Virus record (IMG/VR): IMGVR_UViG_3300040801_003632
Location: 1-31,363 of that record
Reading direction: 5' to 3' (one strand)
Source of the DNA: a virus
DNA: 31,363 nucleotides
In this document: in pieces, positions 1-31,363 of the stretch
How positions within the stretch are numbered: position 1 is the first letter of the stretch
How the letters are laid out: each line of letters starts with the position of its first letter
Program-made: the position numbers and the translations under genes
The notes under the pieces: generated by a model
What the model saw: only the letters and a program-made list of their open reading frames with translations
Told to the model about the DNA's origin: nothing
Database searches by the model: none

Positions 1-117
1 CCTCAACCACGCAGCCACCGACCAATCAGAGTCCGGTAAGTTGAAACTACTCGTGAGTACGCCACCTTGCCTCGCTTGGCCGTAAAAACCATCCTCAAGT
101 GTTGTGTATCCACCGCC
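1..117. repeat. Terminal direct repeat, left copy (assembly overlap of a circular genome)
   Basis: The first 117 bases are identical to bases 31247-31363. A protein frame reads without interruption through the join (31246 to 1), so the repeat is best read as the overlap of a circular or circularly permuted molecule of 31,246 bp. A genuine terminal repeat in the virion is less likely, because it would cut the tail-fibre gene in the middle. The length also fits a k-mer-sized assembler overlap, but this is inference. Confidence 0.93.
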
Positions 118-2415
118 GGACGCCGAGAAGGACTTCCCGCCTCCGCGCTGTACAAGTGTATTATCGAAAGTGAATATATCGGCCGCTACCGGTGCTTTGT
201 ACCCAAAGTAAGTTCCCGAAAGATTTGCCAGTGCGTCAATGAGACCGTTCCCGAAAAGAAGCGGTAAAAACTGCTCGTTTGAGTCTGTCCCGAGTCTCAG
301 CTGCGTGTTCCACTGCGCCCCGTCCCATGTCTGTATCTTGAGCCGGTCGCGTGTGAGTACAAGCCGTCGCAGACCGTCGGAGCTTTCCCCGATGATTCCT
401 TCGTTGCCGATCCGGACCTCTTGGGTCACGTTGGCGATTAAAGCTTCAAGTACAGCTGCCTCGAGTCGATTGGCTTTTATCGAATTCGCAGGGATGCTCC
501 CGTCTTTGATCAGTGAGAAATCCCCTCGCACCGGGTCTGACCAAGCGGATGTCGTTATCCCTTCACGCGTACGGCGTCGCGCTCGGTACCACAGCGGAAA
601 AGATTCGGGCTCATCCGGATCGAGGATGTCAGCATCAATCACGTGCAGTACTCGACCAACAGTGTCCACGTAGAATCCGCCAACAGATCCAGTGAACCAA
701 TCGATAAAACCAAGTTCATACCAGTTTACTGTTTCAGGAGTGCTTTCGGCCGACGGGTCATTTGTTACCTGGATTTCATTATGCATCCACCAACGCAAAT
801 TATCTTGGTGAGGGATAACGATCTCGTTATGCATAAAACCGGATTGCACACCGATTATCGGAACCACTGGTTCCCGAGTTCCAACAGCAGAATCGTACCC
901 GTTGTCGAGTTGTGGAAACGTGGGGCTGTTGTCGGTACGCTCCTGCAATGCAGCTATTGCGGCGGCAGCCTGCTGTGGTTCATCGCCCCGGGTACTTACG
1001 ATTTCAGTCGCGTAGTTTGTAACACCGACAGCTTCGTGGCGGTAGATCTTCTGATGACCGTTATATTCGACCAAAGATACAATCGCTACTGTATCGATGT
1101 TCGGTTGGTCATTCTTCAGGTTGACTACTGTACCGACTGCTACGGGTTGCCTTAGTCCGAAGGTGTACCGGAACGCACTATAGCGAATATGACGAGCTCT
1201 GTGTGTCGCGGTTCGCTCCGCCCGGACCGGGTCAAATATGTGTTCGCTGCGATACTTGTCGGGTCTTTTCGCGGTATCTGGTACGGTGACCTGCTCGATC
1301 CTTTTTCGGTACAGCGTTTTTGCGTAGATCGCGAAGAAATAAATCTTCTTTATCTCAGACGATGTATTTCTGAACCGAATGCGCGCTCTGTGAGCTTCAT
1401 ACTCTTCGAGATCCACAACCACACCGGGATCGGCCGAAAATGAAAGTCTGTGGTCACTGGTAGAGATCAGGGATATGTCTCGATTCTGCTTCCGCGTATC
1501 GGTCGACAGATACGGTGTATCGAGCCATCGATCAGAGAATGTCTGGTAGGTTTCTTCGATGTCGCTATCTGACGGGTAGTAGTCTCCCGGGGCAATATCG
1601 ACGCCTCGAAACGGTCCGTTGACGCCCGAAGGATCTACGGGAAGGTTCGCGTCGTACACCCGAACATCATCAAGAACCGCGGGTCTTGCCCACTCAATCT
1701 CCACACCATCTTCAGGCCAATACTCGCGCTCGACAGTGAACGGCACTGTAGTAAGTTTGTTCTCGTCGATCGTGACTGCGGGAGACCAGGTGTCTTGGTC
1801 AAAACGTGTCCACGTAACAAGTCCCGTGCCCAGTGCGTGGAGTACGTAGCCATGTTCAGACAGCAGCGTGTCGATTGCCTCGCGATACGACAGTTCGTCT
1901 CGATCCCAGGCAACGTGAAGCACCGTGTCGAGAATGTCGGGTGCTCCAGAATCAATCGAAGAGCCGAAACCCGCTGCATTGAGTAGTTGATAGAGGATTG
2001 AGGCGCCAAGGTTTGAGCTGTTATATATGGCAGGAGCCGGGTCACCGACTGTGGCAGGCATACGGATTGACTGCTCGAGCGGCTGGTCGAGCGATTGAGT
2101 CGCGTCGACTATCTCAAGATTAAGCGTTTCGACAAACTGAGACCGGCCTTGAAAATAGGTCGGATCAATTGTGCCGGTGATGAGGTAATCACCAGATTCT
2201 TCCTGTACGTACGCATTGATTTTTTCGGCCGCGTTATAAATCAATCCCACGATTATGGGATCGTGCTTTATGGAGAACTGGTAAGTGTCGACTGTAGAGC
2301 GCCAGTCTTCATTCATGAGCCGACGACTCATAGTTCGTTCTCGATCGATTACCAGGTGTGTAATATCTGTAAAGCCCGCGTCTCCGGGAAACTGCAGGAA
2401 TACGTGGTGGATCAT
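1..2415 (-). CDS. Tail hub / receptor-binding fibre protein, N-terminal 805 residues (continues at the right edge)
   Basis: The frame is open from ATG at 2415 down to base 1 with no stop, and continues in frame at 31246 to a stop at 29390, giving 1,423 residues in all. The start overlaps the tape-measure stop as ATGA, so the two are translationally coupled. Residues 1-~450 look like a tail-hub or tail-tip domain: mixed strands, with a central stretch resembling the D1-type domains of phage hub proteins (LITGTIDPTYFQGR; ILYQLLNAAGFG). Residues ~600-700 resemble the neck seen before phage fibres (IPANSIKANRLEAAVLEALI). A LamG-like jelly-roll begins at about 760-800 (DSDWSVAAW). No separate Dit, Tal or fibre gene lies between tape measure and lysis genes, so this single protein probably fills all those roles. 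The hub assignment is inference from position and composition; the open frame and join are directly visible. Confidence 0.88.
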   Translation of the reverse strand, partial: MIHHVFLQFPGDAGFTDITHLVIDRERTMSRRLMNEDWRSTVDTYQFSIKHDPIIVGLIYNAAEKINAYVQEESGDYLITGTIDPTYFQGRSQFVETLNLEIVDATQSLDQPLEQSIRMPATVGDPAPAIYNSSNLGASILYQLLNAAGFGSSIDSGAPDILDTVLHVAWDRDELSYREAIDTLLSEHGYVLHALGTGLVTWTRFDQDTWSPAVTIDENKLTTVPFTVEREYWPEDGVEIEWARPAVLDDVRVYDANLPVDPSGVNGPFRGVDIAPGDYYPSDSDIEETYQTFSDRWLDTPYLSTDTRKQNRDISLISTSDHRLSFSADPGVVVDLEEYEAHRARIRFRNTSSEIKKIYFFAIYAKTLYRKRIEQVTVPDTAKRPDKYRSEHIFDPVRAERTATHRARHIRYSAFRYTFGLRQPVAVGTVVNLKNDQPNIDTVAIVSLVEYNGHQKIYRHEAVGVTNYATEIVSTRGDEPQQAAAAIAALQERTDNSPTFPQLDNGYDSAVGTREPVVPIIGVQSGFMHNEIVIPHQDNLRWWMHNEIQVTNDPSAESTPETVNWYELGFIDWFTGSVGGFYVDTVGRVLHVIDADILDPDEPESFPLWYRARRRTREGITTSAWSDPVRGDFSLIKDGSIPANSIKANRLEAAVLEALIANVTQEVRIGNEGIIGESSDGLRRLVLTRDRLKIQTWDGAQWNTQLRLGTDSNEQFLPLLFGNGLIDALANLSGTYFGYKAPVAADIFTFDNTLVQRGGGKSFSASGGGYTTLEDGFYGQARQGGVLTSSFNLPDSDWSVAAWLR

Positions 2416-5099
2416 GCAACACCTCGGTCTGCCAGCCGGCGTCCGGCTTGCTGAAGCTGTCGATGAAGTTCGTCAATTCCGTACACAGGGCCATGTACAT
2501 GGATATGGATTCCACCTCCGGATGGACCATGCCGATTCGGCGTACCGATGGGTGTGACATCGATTCGTTCGCGTCCGCCTGGATTGTCGCCTACTCGTAA
2601 AAGCGCGGATCCGCGCGTTTCGAAGGAACCACCAAATTTCGCTGCTTCTACTTCTTCTATTGTCGATGCACTGCGTGCGTTTCGCAGTCTGCCCTGAAGT
2701 CGCGTAATCATATCTTCGAGCTCGCGCCGACGACCGGTTTGACTCACGTTTTTCTGCCACCAGTTCATGTCACCGAGAATGTCTTGATTGTCTCGTATAG
2801 CTGATTCGATTGCGCTGATTTTGGCAGCTTTCTTCCTATCGAGATCAGCCTGGTCACGGGCGGCATCGGCTTGTTCTTCAGCCTCACTGATCGCTGTTTC
2901 TTCGCTTTCAACACCTGTGAGGTGCTGATCAGCAAGAGCTCCTGCCTCGGAACGAAACTCGTCATGGGACATCAGGTTACGATCGAGCATGTCCTTTAAC
3001 ACGTCGAACTCCCGTCGGTACTCGGTCTCCATTCGGCGGATGTTGTCCCGTCGCATGTCGCGTTCGGCTTTCAGCTGCTCATCGATGAGCTTGATCCGTT
3101 CTCGCGCGAGTTTTTCTTCCGCGCTGAGTATCTTTTGTGCTGGTCCATCTACTGGCCCTGCACTGCTCCCGCCAAGATACCCTGTACCTATAGCTGATAG
3201 GCCAGCTAAACCGAATAGTGCTGCTGCCCAAGGCAAAGCTGCCATGCCGCCTTCAGCGAGCAGTCGAAGCCCGGCACCGAGCGCTGTTATCGATATTTGC
3301 CTGGTGATTTCCTGTGCAGCGCTACTAATAGCATTCCCGAACTGATCGGCACCAAGGTTTCCTTCTGCGAGAGCCTTTCCCACGTCTTCGAGCCCCGAGC
3401 GTAGTGCACCAGCGGCTCCTTCTGCGGCACGCCACAGAACGCCTTCGAACTCTTCAGCGATTATTTTCCATGCATCAAACTGTTCTATTTGCTGCTCTTC
3501 TATACCCAACTGCTCACGCAGCGCTTCGCTGATAGACTCGAGTATTGCAAGCTCTTCGGTGAATGCAAGCGCTCCGGCGCCCTGGGAGTGAATAGCGGCT
3601 ATTCGCTCCTGAGCTTGCATATACGCATTCTGTTGAGACGCGAGCTCGGCTCGACGATCACGTTCGTCGCTGATCATGTCCTGCAAACGCGTGCGGACAA
3701 TTACGCTCTCTTCTACCGCTTCTGCCTCTCCTTCGATTAACCCCATATTGATCATCAACTGGGTTTCCTGTTCTTTCAGGTACTCGAGGGATATATTGAT
3801 CTGGTCGGCGTATTCTTTTGTTGCAACCGTAGACTGGTGCTGCAAGAAGGCTGTTTGTTCGCGCAAGTGAGCTAGTTGCCCTTCGTTCGTTTGGCCATAA
3901 ATCGAAAGTATGCGCTGCAGCTGGTCTTCAATCGCGCGGTTTCTCGCTTCTCGTTGCTCAGCTGCATTTCGCTCACGCTCTTCTGCATCGGCCTCCATAC
4001 GAGCAATTGCTGCGAGTCTGTGCTGCTCGTTCTCGAACTCTCGCTCGGCAGCTTCCTGTCGAGACTCTATAACCGCAACGTGTTCTCGCTCTTGCACCGT
4101 CGCGCGACGTATCTGTTCGATTACCGCTTCGAGCTCAACGACAGAAACTGAGGCAGCGGCAGACTGGGCTCCTCCGACGCTTTCGATCTGCTCTTCAAGA
4201 CTCGCCTCTTCTGCGCGCAGCGTACTGATCTCTTCCCGAATAGAAGCAAGAGCTTCCCGTCGCTCCTGGAGCCCTGCGTCCGAGCCCACAGTGGTAATCC
4301 CACGCTCCATGATCTCGCGCAATTCTCGTGCATGCTCGCTCGACTCGATGAAGTCCCTGATCATATTCGCTGTGCCGCGTTGAACAGGTGCGAAGAACTG
4401 GGATGTTACCTGGCCACCGAGCGCCAACAAATCGTCTATTGCGTTTTTGAGCTGCACCCCCGCAGCTTCTGCGCTCAAGCCAATTGCTTCGGCGGTCCCG
4501 CCGAATCGTGAATTGAGTTGCTCGAGTACTGATTCAAGACGTTCGCTGTCGGTTCCTGAGCGATCGATTTGAATTCCATAGCGGGTCAGAGCGGAACTGG
4601 ATCCGTCGATGGTTGCGGCAACCATCCTAGCTGCCCTTTGTAGATCTGTGCCTGTCGCCTCGGCAAAGTCTTGAATCAGAGGGATCGCCCGACGTAGCTC
4701 GTTCTCGCTCAGATTGGCAAGTTGCTGAGTAAGGGCGGCAGCTTCCGTTGTGGCAGCTCCTGCAAATCGAGTAGTTCGGGACAGCTCGCTAGCAAGTTGT
4801 TCGATTCCGCTGACGCTGATCTCTGCACTACGTCCTGTCAGGGAAACCGCATTTGACAGCGCGAGAGACGCTCGCTCATTGTCGAAATACGCCTGCTGAG
4901 CTCGCTGCATTGTTCGAACAAGACCAGCAATGGACACGGCAAGTCCAGCAGCGCCTGCGGCTTTCATTGCGAACTGCTTCACGAGCTGACCACTGCTCTT
5001 TGTAGTTCGCTGTGTCTGCCGATCGAATTGCCGGAGGTTCCGCGCAGCGCGTTCTGTTTCAGATCGGACTATAACCCTGATTTCATCTGCTGTTGGCAT
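2412..5099 (-). CDS. Tail tape measure protein
   Basis: An 895-residue protein, the second-longest gene in the genome, directly after the tail chaperones. It sets tail length and is released on infection. The N-terminal ~110 residues are a short basic coiled coil followed by a small apolar segment (MKAAGAAGLAVSIAGLV). Residues ~280-560 are almost entirely charged coiled coil. A glycine/alanine-rich hydrophobic block (LRLLAEGGMAALPWAAALFG, about residues 625-675) is a likely membrane-insertion segment, and more coiled coil follows. The C-terminus (IHIHVHGPVYGIDELHRQL) has the strand-helix ending typical of lambdoid tape measures. The start at 5099 overlaps the chaperone extension by 17 nt and has GGAGG 9 nt upstream. 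At about 0.15 nm per residue the tail would be roughly 130 nm. Confidence 0.9.
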   Translation of the reverse strand: MPTADEIRVIVRSETERAARNLRQFDRQTQRTTKSSGQLVKQFAMKAAGAAGLAVSIAGLVRTMQRAQQAYFDNERASLALSNAVSLTGRSAEISVSGIEQLASELSRTTRFAGAATTEAAALTQQLANLSENELRRAIPLIQDFAEATGTDLQRAARMVAATIDGSSSALTRYGIQIDRSGTDSERLESVLEQLNSRFGGTAEAIGLSAEAAGVQLKNAIDDLLALGGQVTSQFFAPVQRGTANMIRDFIESSEHARELREIMERGITTVGSDAGLQERREALASIREEISTLRAEEASLEEQIESVGGAQSAAASVSVVELEAVIEQIRRATVQEREHVAVIESRQEAAEREFENEQHRLAAIARMEADAEERERNAAEQREARNRAIEDQLQRILSIYGQTNEGQLAHLREQTAFLQHQSTVATKEYADQINISLEYLKEQETQLMINMGLIEGEAEAVEESVIVRTRLQDMISDERDRRAELASQQNAYMQAQERIAAIHSQGAGALAFTEELAILESISEALREQLGIEEQQIEQFDAWKIIAEEFEGVLWRAAEGAAGALRSGLEDVGKALAEGNLGADQFGNAISSAAQEITRQISITALGAGLRLLAEGGMAALPWAAALFGLAGLSAIGTGYLGGSSAGPVDGPAQKILSAEEKLARERIKLIDEQLKAERDMRRDNIRRMETEYRREFDVLKDMLDRNLMSHDEFRSEAGALADQHLTGVESEETAISEAEEQADAARDQADLDRKKAAKISAIESAIRDNQDILGDMNWWQKNVSQTGRRRELEDMITRLQGRLRNARSASTIEEVEAAKFGGSFETRGSALLRVGDNPGGRERIDVTPIGTPNRHGPSGGGIHIHVHGPVYGIDELHRQLQQAGRRLADRGVA

Positions 5100-15340: not shown

Positions 15341-15518
15341 GGACTCGAGGCTGTAGTCTTAACTGCGGCTGTATACGAGGATCCTGCAGCTCTCCGTCCC
15401 GAACAAAGAACTCAACCTTGCCGTGTTCACCGACCATATCGAGTGCCGCGACAACTATCCGGATTCGCTCTTCATTTTGGTCTACCCACTCATGCAACTG
15501 TTCAATCGTTCGTTCCAT
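15330..15518 (-). CDS. Small acidic protein, function unknown
   Basis: A 62-residue protein. ATG 15518 has GGAGG 4 nt upstream; an in-frame TTG 5 codons earlier lacks a site. The sequence opens MERTIEQLHEWVDQNEERIR, probably a helix followed by a short strand pair (GKVEFFVRDGEL). It overlaps the recombinase stop by 17 nt and is the last gene of the early transcript. No homologous family is recognised. Confidence 0.5.
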   Translation of the reverse strand: MERTIEQLHEWVDQNEERIRIVVAALDMVGEHGKVEFFVRDGELQDPRIQPQLRLQPRVLDT

Positions 15519-16428
15519 TTCCCCTCCGTGCAAAAGAAACTATCTGATCAGGTTTTATCGATGTGTGTACGTACATGTCAGCTGTGATCGTTGTTGTGCT
15601 GTGCCCGAGATACGAACTGACCGCTTTCAGATCATATCCAGCTTGAATCATTCTCGTTGCGAATGAGTGCCTGAGCATGTGCGGATGGACCGAACGTCCC
15701 AGCGTTCGCTCACCTTCCTTCTTCAGCATCTGCCAGATCTGTTGGCGGGTGTATCGGCGTCCGTTCTTTGTCTGGAACACGTACCCGTGTTTATGCGGGT
15801 ATTGCTCCCTGATCTGATTCCACAACTCAATCGAAACATAGAAAGTGCGCTGCTTCCGTCCTTTTCCGCTTATTGTCACGTCTATTCTGTCTGTCTTCAA
15901 ATTGCAGTCTGACAACTCCCAGTTGATCAGTTCGCTTACTCGGATTCCGGTTTCACCCAGCACCGCGATGATACACGACGCCCACGGTCGAGCCCGGTAC
16001 GCCAGACGTCTTATCTCGTCGTCGCTGAGAATCTTATCGTCCAGGACATTGTTGTTCTGCTTGTTCTTGCTCTTCAGAGTTCCGAGAACACGCTCGATCT
16101 TCCAGACATCGAGTATCGAAAAGCTGTCGGGATCTTCAGCAACAATCTCACGAACAATGCGTTTCGCTTGTGACCTGGCAACGTTCACCGTGCTGCTTCG
16201 TCGATCAGACAGGTGCTCAACAAACTCGATTAAAGACTCAAGAGTCAAACCTCGGTGATTGGCTTCAAGCCAGCTGATCAGGTGCTGGTTCTTTTCGACG
16301 TATGAACCGAATCGCCTGCCATCGAGTAAGAACGCTTTTTGTTCGTCGGTTACCTCGTTTATACGGTCTTTATGCAAAAGGTGTATATGTTTTTTTACGG
16401 AACTCAAATTGTGTGTGTCGCTGCTCAT
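15502..16428 (-). CDS. XerC/XerD-type tyrosine recombinase (second recombinase)
   Basis: A 308-residue site-specific recombinase with a full active site. Arg box I is GIRVSELINWELSDCNL, Lys in the GKGRKQRTF hairpin, box II HMLRHSFATRM (His-x-x-Arg), LGHS, and the nucleophile Tyr in DMYVHTS, near the C-terminus. The N-terminal ~110 residues form the helical core-binding domain. It starts on a TAATG overlap with the preceding gene. It is not next to attP: the other integrase is, so this enzyme probably resolves multimers at a dif-like site, or inverts a DNA segment. No inverted-repeat-bounded invertible segment was recognised around it. Confidence 0.9.
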   Translation of the reverse strand: MSSDTHNLSSVKKHIHLLHKDRINEVTDEQKAFLLDGRRFGSYVEKNQHLISWLEANHRGLTLESLIEFVEHLSDRRSSTVNVARSQAKRIVREIVAEDPDSFSILDVWKIERVLGTLKSKNKQNNNVLDDKILSDDEIRRLAYRARPWASCIIAVLGETGIRVSELINWELSDCNLKTDRIDVTISGKGRKQRTFYVSIELWNQIREQYPHKHGYVFQTKNGRRYTRQQIWQMLKKEGERTLGRSVHPHMLRHSFATRMIQAGYDLKAVSSYLGHSTTTITADMYVHTSIKPDQIVSFARRGNGTND

Positions 16429-25268: not shown

Positions 25269-26480
25269 CTATGTCACATAGCCTTCGATCATCGGCAGAA
25301 GGTCTCGTAGTCTCTCGGCCTTCCGGCGTTTATACCGGCTCTGTGCAGGCGTGAGCACCCGAGACGATCCGTAAGTGTGCGAATGCCCGACCAGTTCTCT
25401 CACCAGCAGCTCGTCTGCACCGTCGTCGAGCAACAGTGAGATCACCGTATACTTGAGGCTATACGGAGTGATCCTGTTTCCTTCGACGTCGTGCTCCGGG
25501 ATCTTCGCGGCCGTTGCTGCACGCTGCCAGCGCTTCCGCCGAAACCAGCCTTGATACAACAAACGTTCGCCACCGGTGTTGCAGAACACATAGTCCACCG
25601 GGTTTATCCTGACAGACAGATCCTGAACGCGCCTGAATGCGTCGATCGCGGATGTTGTCAGCGGAACAAACCGTCCTCGGGCTGCTCTGGTTTTCGTGTC
25701 GCGGTACCGAACCGATCCGTCGTCGAGGTCGACGTCTTCCCACCGTAGCGACTCAATCGCCTTCGGCCGTTCACCCGTCGTAAACATGAGAAGCGCGAAA
25801 AGGTGCGCTTTCGCTGTGCGCTCTTCACGGTCTGCCTTTTTGAGTCTAGCGTCCTCATTGTAGTCCCAGTTCGCCGAATCCATTAAGGTTTTGACTTGGT
25901 CTTTCGTGAGAGCTCCCCGGGACGTGGTTTCCTCTCGAACACGCGAAACGGTCGACAACGGATCAAACTGGAATGCCCCGTCCTGGGCGTGCAAGCTCTC
26001 GCGTATCGCGGTCCGGAGGTCGCTGATCACCAGGTTAACCGTTCTCGCGCCAGTCCCATTCTCTCGGAGCCTTCGTTTCCAGTCTTCAATGTCTCTGGGC
26101 TTAATCTCCGTGGTGACCATTCGCCCAAGCTCATCATTTATCACCAGGCGCTTCAGTCGACTCTTTCGGTCAGCGAGCCGTCGCAGATCAGGATCACGTC
26201 CATCGGTGCGCTGTCTGGATACCCACGGACACGTATCAGGGTCGAAAAACGGTTCGAGGTACTCAGACATTGTTTTCAGGTACCGGTGTTCCGGCACCTG
26301 AGCGGTATATTGAGCGGCTGCAAAGCGTTCCGCTTCCGCTCGGTTTCTCGGCTTACCGGCCTTCGAAAACTCGATACGGATCCCAGTAGATCGGTAGTTT
26401 TTCCAGCCTGACAGGCGATAATACCAGAACGGAGACGATCCACGGATTACGACTGTCCATGATTCTGATGGTCTTCCCAT
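25269..26480 (-). CDS. int: Tyrosine integrase (attP-associated)
   Basis: A 403-residue site-specific recombinase from ATG 26480; a longer frame from TTG 26516 is less likely because it overlaps the predicted -35. The N-terminal ~100 residues include an arm-binding region and a stretch RAEAERFAAAQYTAQV; a core-binding domain follows (ARTVNLVISDLRTAIRE). Catalytic domain: box I FTTGERPKAIESLRW with Arg, DTKTRAARGRF with Lys. Box II normally reads H-x-L-R-H-T but here is TPYSLKYTVISLL, so His, Arg and His are replaced by Tyr, Lys and Tyr. LVGHS follows, then the putative nucleophile Tyr in QSRYKRR, further away than usual. It lies beside attP, so it is the phage integrase. Confidence 0.85.
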   Translation of the reverse strand: MGRPSESWTVVIRGSSPFWYYRLSGWKNYRSTGIRIEFSKAGKPRNRAEAERFAAAQYTAQVPEHRYLKTMSEYLEPFFDPDTCPWVSRQRTDGRDPDLRRLADRKSRLKRLVINDELGRMVTTEIKPRDIEDWKRRLRENGTGARTVNLVISDLRTAIRESLHAQDGAFQFDPLSTVSRVREETTSRGALTKDQVKTLMDSANWDYNEDARLKKADREERTAKAHLFALLMFTTGERPKAIESLRWEDVDLDDGSVRYRDTKTRAARGRFVPLTTSAIDAFRRVQDLSVRINPVDYVFCNTGGERLLYQGWFRRKRWQRAATAAKIPEHDVEGNRITPYSLKYTVISLLLDDGADELLVRELVGHSHTYGSSRVLTPAQSRYKRRKAERLRDLLPMIEGYVT

Positions 26481-26487
26481 GTGAAAA

Positions 26488-26516
26488 AGTATCGTTTTTG
26501 AGTCGAAAAGTTGCAA
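26488..26516 (-). promoter_or_regulatory. Putative integrase promoter with almost no leader
   Basis: TTGCAA (26516-26511), 17-bp spacer, GATACT (26493-26488) on the minus strand. Transcription would begin within a few bases of the integrase ATG (26480), so the mRNA may be leaderless. No Shine-Dalgarno is visible. Confidence 0.45.
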
Positions 26517-26597: not shown

Positions 26598-26640
26598 TGG
26601 GCGCTACTGGATTTGAACCAGTGACATCCTGCTTGTAAGT
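26598..26640 (-). other. attP core: 3' half of a tRNA-Val(UAC) gene
   Basis: The minus strand reads from the anticodon loop CTTACAA (anticodon TAC, Val) through 3' stem GCAGG, variable ATGTC, T arm ACTGG-TTCAAAT-CCAGT, and acceptor AGCGCCC plus A73. The 5' half is absent: the sequence before the loop cannot pair with GCAGG. Such a fragment beside an integrase is the standard phage attP, which restores the host tRNA on integration. No CCA is encoded after A73. Confidence 0.88.
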
Positions 26641-26776
26641 CTCTTCTTTACGTGAGAAACCTTGATATAGTAACTATTTTACGGTGTTTTCCGGCAATTT
26701 TTCGGCATATTTAGAGGGTTTTGTGACCAGTCGTGATCGGGTTTATTGCGAGTAAAATGTGCAGGGTTTTTTAGCG

Positions 26777-28498: not shown

Positions 28499-28842
28499 TC
28501 ACCAAACTGATTTATTCGCTGTGACTGCGGCGGTACTCGCCACCAGTGCGCGGTAGGACCGCTGTCCACGGGGACCCTGCTCCCGTCTGCCATTATGTCC
28601 ACGGCTGTGATGGTCGTAGCGTCGCTGTGAGCGTTCGCGGCAATAAAAGCCGGTCGCTCATATACAATCGTCTGCGGTCCGTCTCCCTGGTGCAGCGTGC
28701 TCTGCGCTGTATCGCCTGTCGTGTGCTCGAATACACGGACTGCCCACGGTCCGTCTGCGTCGATCTGTAGTTCAACGGTTCCGGTACGCGGGGTCGCGCA
28801 CCCTGCGAGTATCAAAACTGCCAGTATCAGTAGTGCTTTCAT
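28492..28842 (-). CDS. Lipoprotein in the lysis region (o-spanin candidate)
   Basis: A 116-residue protein, ATGA-coupled. Signal KALLILAVLILAGCATP with lipobox LAGC (Cys at about residue 15). The mature part has strand-rich sequence (TVELQIDADGPWAVRVFE; TIVYERPAFIAANA), unlike short Pro-rich Rz1 proteins, so it may instead be a lysogen-surface or lysis-timing protein. It is the only lipobox protein in the late operon. Confidence 0.62.
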   Translation of the reverse strand: MKALLILAVLILAGCATPRTGTVELQIDADGPWAVRVFEHTTGDTAQSTLHQGDGPQTIVYERPAFIAANAHSDATTITAVDIMADGSRVPVDSGPTAHWWRVPPQSQRINQFGEW

Positions 28843-29393
28843 TCTGCCCCTCCCTTGGTCATATCATGCCGCCACCGGGCGGCTTCGTGGGCTGATTTGT
28901 TGTGTGCCTTCCACGGCCATGTGATCCTGTCTTGCCAGTCGACCGGTGGCAGTCTGTAAGGCCACGGTGGCAGGTAGGGTACAATGTCGCCTCGGTGTGC
29001 CCGGTTCGCCTCGGTCTCAATATCTGACACTCGGGTGAGCGTGCGCTTGCTCGCAAACAGGTGTAGCTGTGTGCGTACTCGGAAACCTGTATCGAGCATG
29101 AGCGCGAGTATCTGCGCTACTGCCCCGCCACGGCTGAATCCGCATGTGACGATCTCTTTTGCTTGGTGGATTATTCCCTGTGACGCAAGCTCCACGACTA
29201 TATAGCTCGCCTCTGCGTAGTCGCGGGTGTTGACCCTGCGCCCGGCATAGCGGACGGTGCGGGTGTCCACGTTGTGCGCCCACTGTGACCAGCCGTGTGT
29301 ACCGGCGCACCAGATGTAGAGTGTCTCGTCGCGGAATAAGTAGCGGTGCTGTGTTGTGGGAATGCGGGTCCAGATCATGCGCTTCATACTCAT
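28839..29393 (-). CDS. Lipase class 3-like alpha/beta hydrolase
   Basis: A 184-residue protein with ATG 29393, ATGA-coupled to the fibre gene. Nucleophile elbow CGFSRGGAVAQILAL (G-x-S-x-G, Ser87) after a helix (YIVVELASQGIIHQAKEIVT), then Asp136 in HRGDIVPYLPPWPY, the D-x-V-P-x-L-P-P phrase of class 3 lipases. A terminal His (RWRHD or HNKSAH) could complete the triad. It is small for the family. It may act on membrane lipid at lysis or adsorption. Confidence 0.72.
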   Translation of the reverse strand: MSMKRMIWTRIPTTQHRYLFRDETLYIWCAGTHGWSQWAHNVDTRTVRYAGRRVNTRDYAEASYIVVELASQGIIHQAKEIVTCGFSRGGAVAQILALMLDTGFRVRTQLHLFASKRTLTRVSDIETEANRAHRGDIVPYLPPWPYRLPPVDWQDRITWPWKAHNKSAHEAARWRHDMTKGGAE

Positions 29394-31363
29394 CCAGCTT
29401 GCAACGTCAGATTACCAACTAGCGTTACATCTGCCATTGTCAATGGATTAGAGAAAACTTCATTTTGTGGTATGCCTGGAGTATCCCAAAGGTAGCCTGT
29501 GAAGCGTAGTGTTGATCGCCAGTACGGTTTACCATCGTACCTAAGTGCTGCATAGTCTTGCCCCCCGTATGTAACTCGAGATAAGTACCAATAAGATGAA
29601 CCGTCCGTACCACCGGAGTGATAGGAAACCGCATTCATGTAGGCTATATAACGCGCGTTCATGCCGTGTGCTTGTGACGATACGCCGAAATCTATCTTGT
29701 GAATGTCGTCGTGACCGGACGATCGTTGCCCGAGAAGTTGCCCCTGTACATTTAGAGATGAAGAGCCCCATTCGCCGAGAAGCCACAAGCAAGAGGTTCC
29801 ATTTGCGTCTGCTTCTGGTACGTCACGGTTGAGGACGTAGCCCGATGTAAACCGTAGCTCCCCTGCTATCTCTAATGTGTCTATACCTACCGGAAAAGAA
29901 ACTCCCCCCTCAAACCGATGCACCCCTCCACCGGTCGTAACGTAGTTGATGTCCCGACCATCTCTCGCTTGTATCCGCATATCTCGGGTGTCTGCGTCGT
30001 CTGTCCACGGTTGGCCGGACTGGCGGTATGCGGTGATCTCGCTTTCAACTACGTTGTCACCTTCGAGTAGCAACAGGTCGTCTATTTTGCTCGTGCCGGA
30101 CAGGGTGATCTGTAGCGGGGCGGCGCTCATGTCTAGGCCGGTCGTGTCAATCGATGCTGCTACTGTGCCGTCAACTGTGAGTGAGACCGTGCTGCCGTTG
30201 CGCTTGAGATGGTAGTGGTGCCATGCGTTCGCGGGAGGTGGGGTAAAGGTGTCGGATGTGCCGACAGTACGGGCGATTTGCGCTACATTGTCTCCGCAAA
30301 GTCCCATTCCATTTTCGCGTAAAACGACAGATTGAAGACTTGCATTGCTATGCGGATAAGCACTCGAGATGTCTGTCCACGTGACGCCTGAATCAGTTGT
30401 GCGGGCGATTTCGCCTGATTGACCAACTGCCAAGCCTACTCCGTCATCGCAGAGAGTGACGGACAGGATTATCCAATGGTGCGGGTAGGCACTCGAGATG
30501 TCCGTCCACGTGACGCCCGAATCGGTTGTGCGGGCGATGTCCCCTGAGTCGCCGACAGCCAGACCCACTCCGTCGTCACGCAGGGCTACGGACCGGACGT
30601 TGCTGCTATGCGGATAAGCACTCGAGATGTCTGTCCACGTGACGCCTGAATCGGTTGTACGGGCGATTTGTCCGAGAACACCGACAGCCAGACCTACTCC
30701 GTCATCACGCAGTGCGACGGATAAGATACTTCCGCTATGCGGATAAGCACTCGAGATGTCTGTCCACGTGACGCCTGAATCAGTTGTGCGGGCGATTTCG
30801 CCTGATAGACCAACTGCCAAGCCTACTCCGTCATCGCGTAAAACGAGAGATTCAAAACTGAGATTTGTAAACTCATAAGATTCAAATATTTTTGTCCACG
30901 TGACGCCTGAATCGGTTGTACGGGCTATCGTTCCTAAGGCACCGGCAGCGAGCCCTACTCCGTCGTCACGCAGGACAATGCCAAAAATTGTTCTTGCATG
31001 CGGGTAGGCACTCGAGATGTCTGTCCACGTGACGCCTGAATCAGTTGTGCGGGCGATTTTTCCTGAGTCGCCGCCTACGAGTCCCACTCCATCATCGCGT
31101 AAGGCAATGCACCGAATCGAGTTGTGCGGGTAATTGCTAACATTAGACCATACTGAGCCGTGGTTTTCTGCATTGAAAAGAAACGCGAAACCACTTCCTA
31201 TGTTCACGCCCGTAAAACGGGTTCGCAGCTGTAACTTATTCTCCCGCCTCAACCACGCAGCCACCGACCAATCAGAGTCCGGTAAGTTGAAACTACTCGT
31301 GAGTACGCCACCTTGCCTCGCTTGGCCGTAAAAACCATCCTCAAGTGTTGTGTATCCACCGCC
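29390..31363 (-). CDS. Hub-fibre protein, C-terminal part with a seven-bladed propeller nested in a LamG-like domain
   Basis: The 3' part of the gene that begins at 2415 (1,423 residues in all; residues 806-1423 fall at 31246-29390, and the repeated 31247-31363 stretch is the overlap). LamG first half: DSDWSVAAWLRRENK...TGVNIGSGFAF. Then seven ~43-residue units (about 834-1130), each with LRDDGVGL and a G-x-I-A-R-T-T-D-S-G-V-T-W block (Asp-box) in six of seven. LamG second half: WHHYHLKRNGSTVSLTVDGT and KIDDLLLLEG. A C-terminal beta-rich region (ALRYDGKPYWRSTLRFTGYL) follows. Reading from a GTG at 31264 would miss the first half. Confidence 0.88.
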   Translation of the reverse strand, partial: GGGYTTLEDGFYGQARQGGVLTSSFNLPDSDWSVAAWLRRENKLQLRTRFTGVNIGSGFAFLFNAENHGSVWSNVSNYPHNSIRCIALRDDGVGLVGGDSGKIARTTDSGVTWTDISSAYPHARTIFGIVLRDDGVGLAAGALGTIARTTDSGVTWTKIFESYEFTNLSFESLVLRDDGVGLAVGLSGEIARTTDSGVTWTDISSAYPHSGSILSVALRDDGVGLAVGVLGQIARTTDSGVTWTDISSAYPHSSNVRSVALRDDGVGLAVGDSGDIARTTDSGVTWTDISSAYPHHWIILSVTLCDDGVGLAVGQSGEIARTTDSGVTWTDISSAYPHSNASLQSVVLRENGMGLCGDNVAQIARTVGTSDTFTPPPANAWHHYHLKRNGSTVSLTVDGTVAASIDTTGLDMSAAPLQITLSGTSKIDDLLLLEGDNVVESEITAYRQSGQPWTDDADTRDMRIQARDGRDINYVTTGGGVHRFEGGVSFPVGIDTLEIAGELRFTSGYVLNRDVPEADANGTSCLWLLGEWGSSSLNVQGQLLGQRSSGHDDIHKIDFGVSSQAHGMNARYIAYMNAVSYHSGGTDGSSYWYLSRVTYGGQDYAALRYDGKPYWRSTLRFTGYLWDTPGIPQNEVFSNPLTMADVTLVGNLTLQAG
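30265..31155 (-). repeat. Tandem ~129-bp repeats coding for the beta-propeller
   Basis: Near-identical blocks such as CTCGAGATGTCTGTCCACGT recur at about 30362, 30491, 30620, 30749 and 31010 (one divergent copy between the last two), a period of 129 bp or 43 codons. Blades 2-7 share most of their DNA, so they expanded recently. Confidence 0.9.
31247..31363. repeat. Terminal direct repeat, right copy
   Basis: Identical to bases 1-117. See the left copy; the unit length is 31,246 bp. Confidence 0.93.

Follow-up and report, generated by a model that had tools for sequence, protein, structure and literature searches.

Among the closest described systems are the highly repetitive beta-propellers of Pereira and Lupas (2022, PMC9218822), which the accessible part of that paper defines by a median internal identity above 60%, and among which it mentions an Asp-box group and viral members. 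The Vibrio cholerae sialidase, according to the part of PMC2716378 available, is a type 2 Asp-box propeller with an inserted lectin-like domain, and tail-like fibres with propeller lectins have already been described (PMC12923769, also available in part). Here we analyse a phage tail protein in which a propeller of the repetitive Asp-box kind appears to interrupt a LamG domain.

The window, by which we mean the whole stretch of DNA analysed, is the 31,363-base viral record IMGVR_UViG_3300040801_003632 of IMG/VR. Because its ends carry the same 117 bases as a perfect terminal repeat, the record was taken as circular, and the minus-strand frame 31363-29390 (P0001, 657 residues, open past the window end) is therefore continuous with the minus-strand frame 2415-1; with an overlap of 39 residues, the two make up a tail protein of 1423 residues. 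The presence of HK97-type head genes, a terminase, two integrase genes and an antirepressor identifies a temperate tailed phage, presumably of siphovirus type judging from gene place. Both integrase genes (15502-16428 and 25269-26516) encode tyrosine integrases, two in one 31-kb phage. The terminase has matches at 9 loci of viral contigs and in 2558 phage records, every one of them below 60% identity.

Beside an integrase gene, near 26610-26660, is a 42-base stretch resembling the 3' half of a tRNA-Val gene, a label that reflects our own reading of the anticodon; ARAGORN reported no whole tRNA at 26610-26660. Exact copies of the stretch occur in two contigs of the genome collection, both from Spirochaetales MAGs whose source, at a guess from the isolate names, is soda-lake sediment. 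The stretch is a probable attachment site and a probable clue to the host. The first part of the tail protein has a distant homologue in one of 46 Spirochaetales genomes (24%, E 6e-14), and on sequence grounds the host is likely to be a spirochaete. The homologous tail protein in a Spirochaetales genome (L235:2315-6925) has a C-terminal region weakly like designed propellers (E 0.006), and no LamG domain is recognisable in the part of it that corresponds to the LamG domain and ring.

The first 805 residues of the tail protein (1-2415, minus strand, continuing off the low end of the record) comprise the region with the Spirochaetales homologue (residues ~1-577) and, in their last ~70 residues, the beginning of a LamG-like domain (1-213, minus strand, with an approximate boundary), which resumes at the opposite end of the circular record. 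In P0001, all on the minus strand, follow the LamG first half with its DWSVAAW and GFAFLFN strands (residues 1-65, 31169-31363, recognised by Laminin_G_3 and our own LamG HMM); a seven-bladed Asp-box propeller of PSII_BNR/Ycf48-like type (residues 66-366, 30266-31168, recognised by profile, motif and model); the LamG second half with WHHYHLKRNG...VDGT (residues ~370-440, 30044-30256, recognised by our HMM and modelled strands); and a C-terminal region of ~210 residues (29390-30043) without a family match. The LamG-like strands before and after the ring thus lie, by their profile matches, where the preliminary description had put them.

Just upstream, and overlapping the tail gene start, an 895-residue protein (2412-5099, minus strand) is probably the tape measure, from its size, composition and place, and gave no tail family match in Pfam or PHROGs; because the tail gene adjoins this gene, the tail protein is likely to belong to the tail tip or a fibre. 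The tail gene is followed directly by a lipase/esterase-like gene (28839-29393; phrog_21992, 3.4e-10; Lipase_3 just below cut-off). Neither the first 805 residues nor the C-terminal region matched a family in Pfam, PHROGs or NCBIfam, and the whole protein gave no TipJ match in NCBIfam. When viral contigs were scanned for close relatives of P0001, of the 805-residue part and of the probable tape measure, no homologue was found; in the phage collection the 805-residue part had no match and P0001 one weak ring match. No relative of the exact LamG-ring protein was found in the viral contigs or the phage collection, and hence the window's own site was not seen in an empty state.

The ring is built from seven units with starts of the LRDDGVGL type at P0001 residues 88, 131, 175, 218, 261, 304 and 348. 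The preliminary description had spoken of exactly seven 43-residue units: the number stands, while the length is not uniform, the successive spacings being 43, 44, 43, 43, 43 and 44. Six units contain a strict Asp box, TTDSGVTW, at residues 106, 149, 193, 236, 279 and 322; the strict motifs of blades 1 to 6 lie on the minus strand at 31025-31063, 30896-30934, 30764-30802, 30635-30673, 30506-30544 and 30377-30415. The seventh unit has no strict box, and a degenerate one, AENHGSVW (residue 65; 31148-31171, minus strand), lies just before the first unit, at the junction of LamG domain and ring. Blade 7 is therefore read as split between the ring ends, so that the chain runs from the turn and outer strand of blade 7 through six complete blades of 43-44 residues to the first three strands of blade 7. 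The window contains the blade pattern six times, compared with a mean of 0.00 over 100 shuffles, and the strict Asp-box motif never reached more than one copy in any of 2000 residue shuffles. Median identity is 78% for the cores of blades 1-6 and 65% for the seven boxes, which places the ring among the highly repetitive beta-propellers (median blade identity above 60%).

By family, the ring is a PSII_BNR propeller (PF14870; 2.2e-14, 53.8 bits against a Pfam cut-off of 27), with Sortilin-Vps10 as the second Pfam family. A PDB sequence search with the ring alone matched Ycf48 (6.7e-9), a protein-binding assembly factor of photosystem II; with 71.1 bits against a cut-off of 326 for the NCBIfam equivalog NF010237, the ring is not Ycf48 proper. 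A Foldseek search of the PDB with the structure model placed Ycf48 at all of ranks 1-12 (best E 2.7e-16, TM 0.77 by target), and VIA-align superposed model residues 70-366 on a solved designed seven-bladed propeller with Z 32.3 and rmsd 2.2 over 275 aligned residues; its best 50 matches by Z were WD40 and designed seven-bladed rings, with no Ycf48 chain among the matches listed. In both programs residues 66-366 span whole seven-bladed rings. The nearest relatives of the ring are Ycf48-type propellers, not sialidases. Since blade order, Ycf48 matches, model and whole-ring superposition agree, the insert is one complete, closed seven-bladed Asp-box propeller, and what had been proposed from the letters of the DNA is confirmed by seven units, by profile and model matches and by a repeat count beyond chance.

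The model used in these comparisons came from AlphaFold2. Run on P0001 alone (single-sequence, 657 residues), AlphaFold2 gave a pLDDT of 36; a second model, built with an alignment (A2), reached a mean of 71.6 and modelled the ring confidently, most of it at about 80-95. In the same model the LamG first half lies at 25-53 outside one strand (25-72 overall) and the C half at about 50-77, with strands at 381-389, 392-397, 400-406 and 426-434. Alignment A2 has 42 rows: the query, 28 query fragments serving as anchors, 8 LamG rows and 5 ring rows. The anchors were added because MAFFT never placed LamG and ring rows together, and A2 was picked from random row-set trials (349, 794, 1198, 533, 700, 849, 524, 444 and 444 alignments) by a score that rewarded nested placement, with two tryptophans of every LamG row and the ring tryptophans in place; even so, its LamG rows keep 45-62 residues in ring columns. 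Chosen in this way, A2 makes the model evidence for the ring only and no independent test of the LamG split.

The evidence for the split comes from profiles. On the intact protein, Laminin_G_3 (PF13385) matches in two stretches, the first at residues 17-78 (profile 4-65), and scores 26.9 bits, narrowly short of its 27.6-bit cut-off; once the ring is removed, the match becomes one continuous stretch of 37.6 bits (E 3e-9), above the cut-off. Our own LamG HMM, for which 48 LamG sequences from viral contigs and nothing from the window were used, gives two co-linear matches to profile positions 49-93 and 113-169, separated by 303 residues of the protein, and on excision of the ring a single match to 49-169 at 35.5 bits. 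Shifting the excision upstream lowers this score to 34.1 bits at 20 residues and about 30 at 40 or 60; shifting it 30 or more residues downstream leaves at most 2.8 bits, because the LamG C half is then lost. These scores place the insertion in the hairpin region after GFAFLFN, not at a single residue. When MAFFT was given the query and LamG rows alone, 6 of 6 and 20 of 20 rows split round the ring unprompted; with one or three LamG rows the first half stayed unaligned (0/1, 0/3), and with ring rows present it was misplaced in every trial. The sequence thus supports the view that a single LamG domain supplies both flanks, as co-linear halves with the ring inserted between them.

A comparable insertion is found in a second phage protein, L097, a 1470-residue protein of TipJ type (NCBIfam TipJ 1e-32, 113 bits, below the cut-off of 140; GpJ FNIII-A domain 6.2e-21) with a ring of 302 residues at 737-1038. 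Its matches number 98 phage records, of which three were compared: Curvibacter phage P26059A, Rhizobium phage RHph_Y3_1 and Rhodobacter phage RC1. Each of these has an empty ring site and an uninterrupted domain, and when the ring is removed from L097 the two BLAST matches merge in each comparison, from 227 and 87 to 297 bits, from 375 and 69 to 430, and from 305 and 39 to 332. The ring occupies a hairpin turn, apparently without loss of host-domain residues.

More widely, a degenerate Asp-box blade pattern was found in at least 119 stretches of the viral contigs, with 112 open frames carrying a blade among the matches listed. The longest run of boxes in these 112 frames was six in 21, seven in 5, five in 5 and fewer in 81, so that six boxes plus a closing blade, the arrangement in the window, is the commonest full array among them. 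Such rings lie between other sequences in L106, L053, L091, L022, L104 and L085. In L106 (2371-4704) the blades have a median identity of 88% and the flanks look like one interrupted domain; no relatives that might have supplied a third empty site were found for it. A 694-residue protein of Vibrio phage vB_VmeM-32 from Lake Elmenteita (L241:1658-3742) consists almost wholly of Asp-box repeats; its record notes a similarity to an outer capsid protein.

A LamG pattern scan of the viral contigs gave 99 frames, none with an Asp-box run or with more than one box in a row, which indicates that LamG domains rarely contain a ring. Long-spaced LamG proteins were considered as further nested cases and rejected: the 9 of 99 with a spacing of at least 277 are tandem LamGs, in a judgement that leaves aside the 44 of 99 in which the pattern has no upstream motif. 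Two ring matches in the 46 Spirochaetales genomes were likewise discarded as phage rings, both being transporter permeases. These OppC-type proteins (L236:3299-5044 in G032 and L237:7380-9125 in G033) carry a Ycf48-like propeller between OppC_N, with the first membrane helix, and the transport domain BPD_transp_1, apparently a nested ring in a cellular protein.

Variation between blades is unevenly distributed. Among blades 1-6, pN is 0.06 in the framework (strands A/B and C/D, the Asp-box turn included), rises to 0.27 in SSAYPHx and 0.34 in the B-C loop, and reaches 0.48 over the seven residues that precede the LRDDG of strand A; pS is 0.57-0.73 except in the C/D stretch (0.22). In every region compared pN is below pS, so relaxed constraint is as good an explanation of the loops as selection for variety. 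Across 13 arrays (the window's and 12 hand-picked among the 31 listed with at least five boxes), mean blade identity is 0.14-0.35 at three positions after the B strand, 0.17-0.40 at four in the D-A loop, and 0.57-1.00 in the Asp box apart from one position at 0.45; four positions at the start of strand A, at 0.35-0.49, are also rather variable, and the variation is thus not confined to one face. The Asp-box stretch itself, ~48 bases per blade within 30377-31063, is near-identical even at silent sites (the pS of 0.22), and in this resembles a tract of recombination or gene conversion. Over the core, blades 3 and 6 share 96% of their DNA sequence, and other pairs differ by 15-33%.

Taking these results together, we think it likely that the ring is an inserted receptor-binding head carried on a LamG mount in a tail-tip protein. 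A whole seven-bladed Asp-box propeller would have entered a beta-hairpin of the LamG domain in permuted form, its chain ends being neighbouring strands of blade 7 beside the bottom-face Asp-box turn; because these ends are adjacent, the ring could take the place of a hairpin turn and leave the host domain undisturbed. In propellers the B-C and D-A loops lie on one face and the A-B and C-D turns on the other. Both chain ends of the ring sit at blade 7's C-D turn, on the face away from the B-C and D-A loops, and for this reason the top-face loops, variable between blades, would point outward and the nearly invariant bottom-face turns (A-B, with the Asp box) toward the host domain. The tail-tip protein would reach the cell surface, where the outer ring face may bind a surface molecule, with the LamG domain as mount of the ring or as a second binding site; near-identical blades could offer several equal sites to a repeated ligand. 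We infer the face assignment, by analogy with general propeller topology, and with it the orientation of the ring, its receptor binding and its place in the virion.

The ring might instead be a spacer or structural collar, with binding left to the C-terminal region or the LamG domain. The ~210 residues without a known family after the LamG domain would suit this role, Ycf48-like rings are general scaffolds, and pN stays below pS even in the variable loops. Set against these points, variation peaks in the loops of one face, and the different, weakly propeller-like C-terminal region of L235 fits an exchange of binding modules; we regard a collar as unlikely. A still less probable reading takes the flanks as a pair of unrelated beta pieces, or of degenerate lectin domains, on either side of a free-standing ring. 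It draws on the weakness of the LamG first half, which scores an i-E of 0.18 by itself with our HMM and is poorly modelled, and on the frequency of tandem LamGs in phage proteins; it has to contend with matches that are co-linear and non-overlapping, each without the other's part, with the higher score of the joined halves, and with L097, a clear insertion in one domain. Split matches, excision gain, ring fold and the L097 ring with its empty sites all support the earlier proposal that the ring is nested in one LamG domain.

A sialidase-like or other glycan-cleaving propeller is very improbable. Several glycosidase families typically have Asp boxes (PMC2716378, in the part available). There is also a weak NCBIfam glycosylhydrolase match (55 bits against a cut-off of 175), as well as the neighbouring lipase/esterase-like gene. 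Near-identical blades leave scant room for an asymmetric active site, the nearest folds are Ycf48 and WD40 propellers, and the FRIP/YRIP arginine motif of GH33 sialidases is absent from P0001. The argument of the preliminary description from Asp boxes through sialidases to a carbohydrate receptor accordingly finds no support; a glycan receptor is possible by another analogy, as LamG domains often bind glycans. That the repeats were collapsed or duplicated in short-read assembly, as the near identity of blades 3 and 6 and the origin of the record in a viral contig collection might suggest, is hardly credible given that the blade number closes the ring exactly in an open frame, that other blade pairs differ by 15-33% and that other contigs show the same number (a run of exactly six boxes in 21/112 and of seven in 5/112 of the frames listed).

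To return to the inserted binding head, we tentatively raise a broader idea, somewhat less probable than not, that tailed phages possess a portable, permuted seven-blade cassette, cut at the Asp-box turn, that drops into hairpins of tail-tip domains unrelated to one another (LamG here, TipJ in L097) and serves, variable face outward, as an exchangeable and evolvable binding head with a logic like that of a variable repeat receptor. Since the cassette is cut on the invariant face, each insertion would present the variable face outward. The structural rule suggested is that a large module can be added to a tail-tip protein, leaving it unbroken, when its ends lie on one face and its variable loops on the other. 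The ring would then be a candidate host-range module recognisable from sequence alone, and empty sites in named phages make the module idea testable.

Compared with known systems, the window ring resembles the repetitive propellers of PMC9218822 in its median identity above 60% and its Asp-box kind; the accessible part of that paper contains no mention of 'phage', 'inserted' or 'insertion', nor was nesting in another domain found there. In the open-access literature, as far as its texts were available, we found no description of a propeller set into a LamG or tail-tip domain, which suggests that such nesting is apparently new, highly repetitive propellers themselves being known. Ycf48/HCF136 (PDB 5ojr, 2xbg, 8am5) shares the Asp-box blade kind and the seven blades and is the best sequence and fold match, whereas the window ring lies far below the equivalog cut-off and has nearly identical blades; Ycf48/HCF136 is a free assembly factor, the window ring an insert in a phage protein. 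The TipJ/gpJ proteins of RHph_Y3_1, RC1 and P26059A are homologues of L097, whose inserted ring resembles that of the window, and their own site is without a ring. Finally, going by the available part of its description, the Vibrio cholerae sialidase is like the window protein in combining a propeller and a lectin-like sandwich by insertion, but the direction is reversed: there a lectin-like domain sits in a propeller, and here a propeller sits in a LamG domain.
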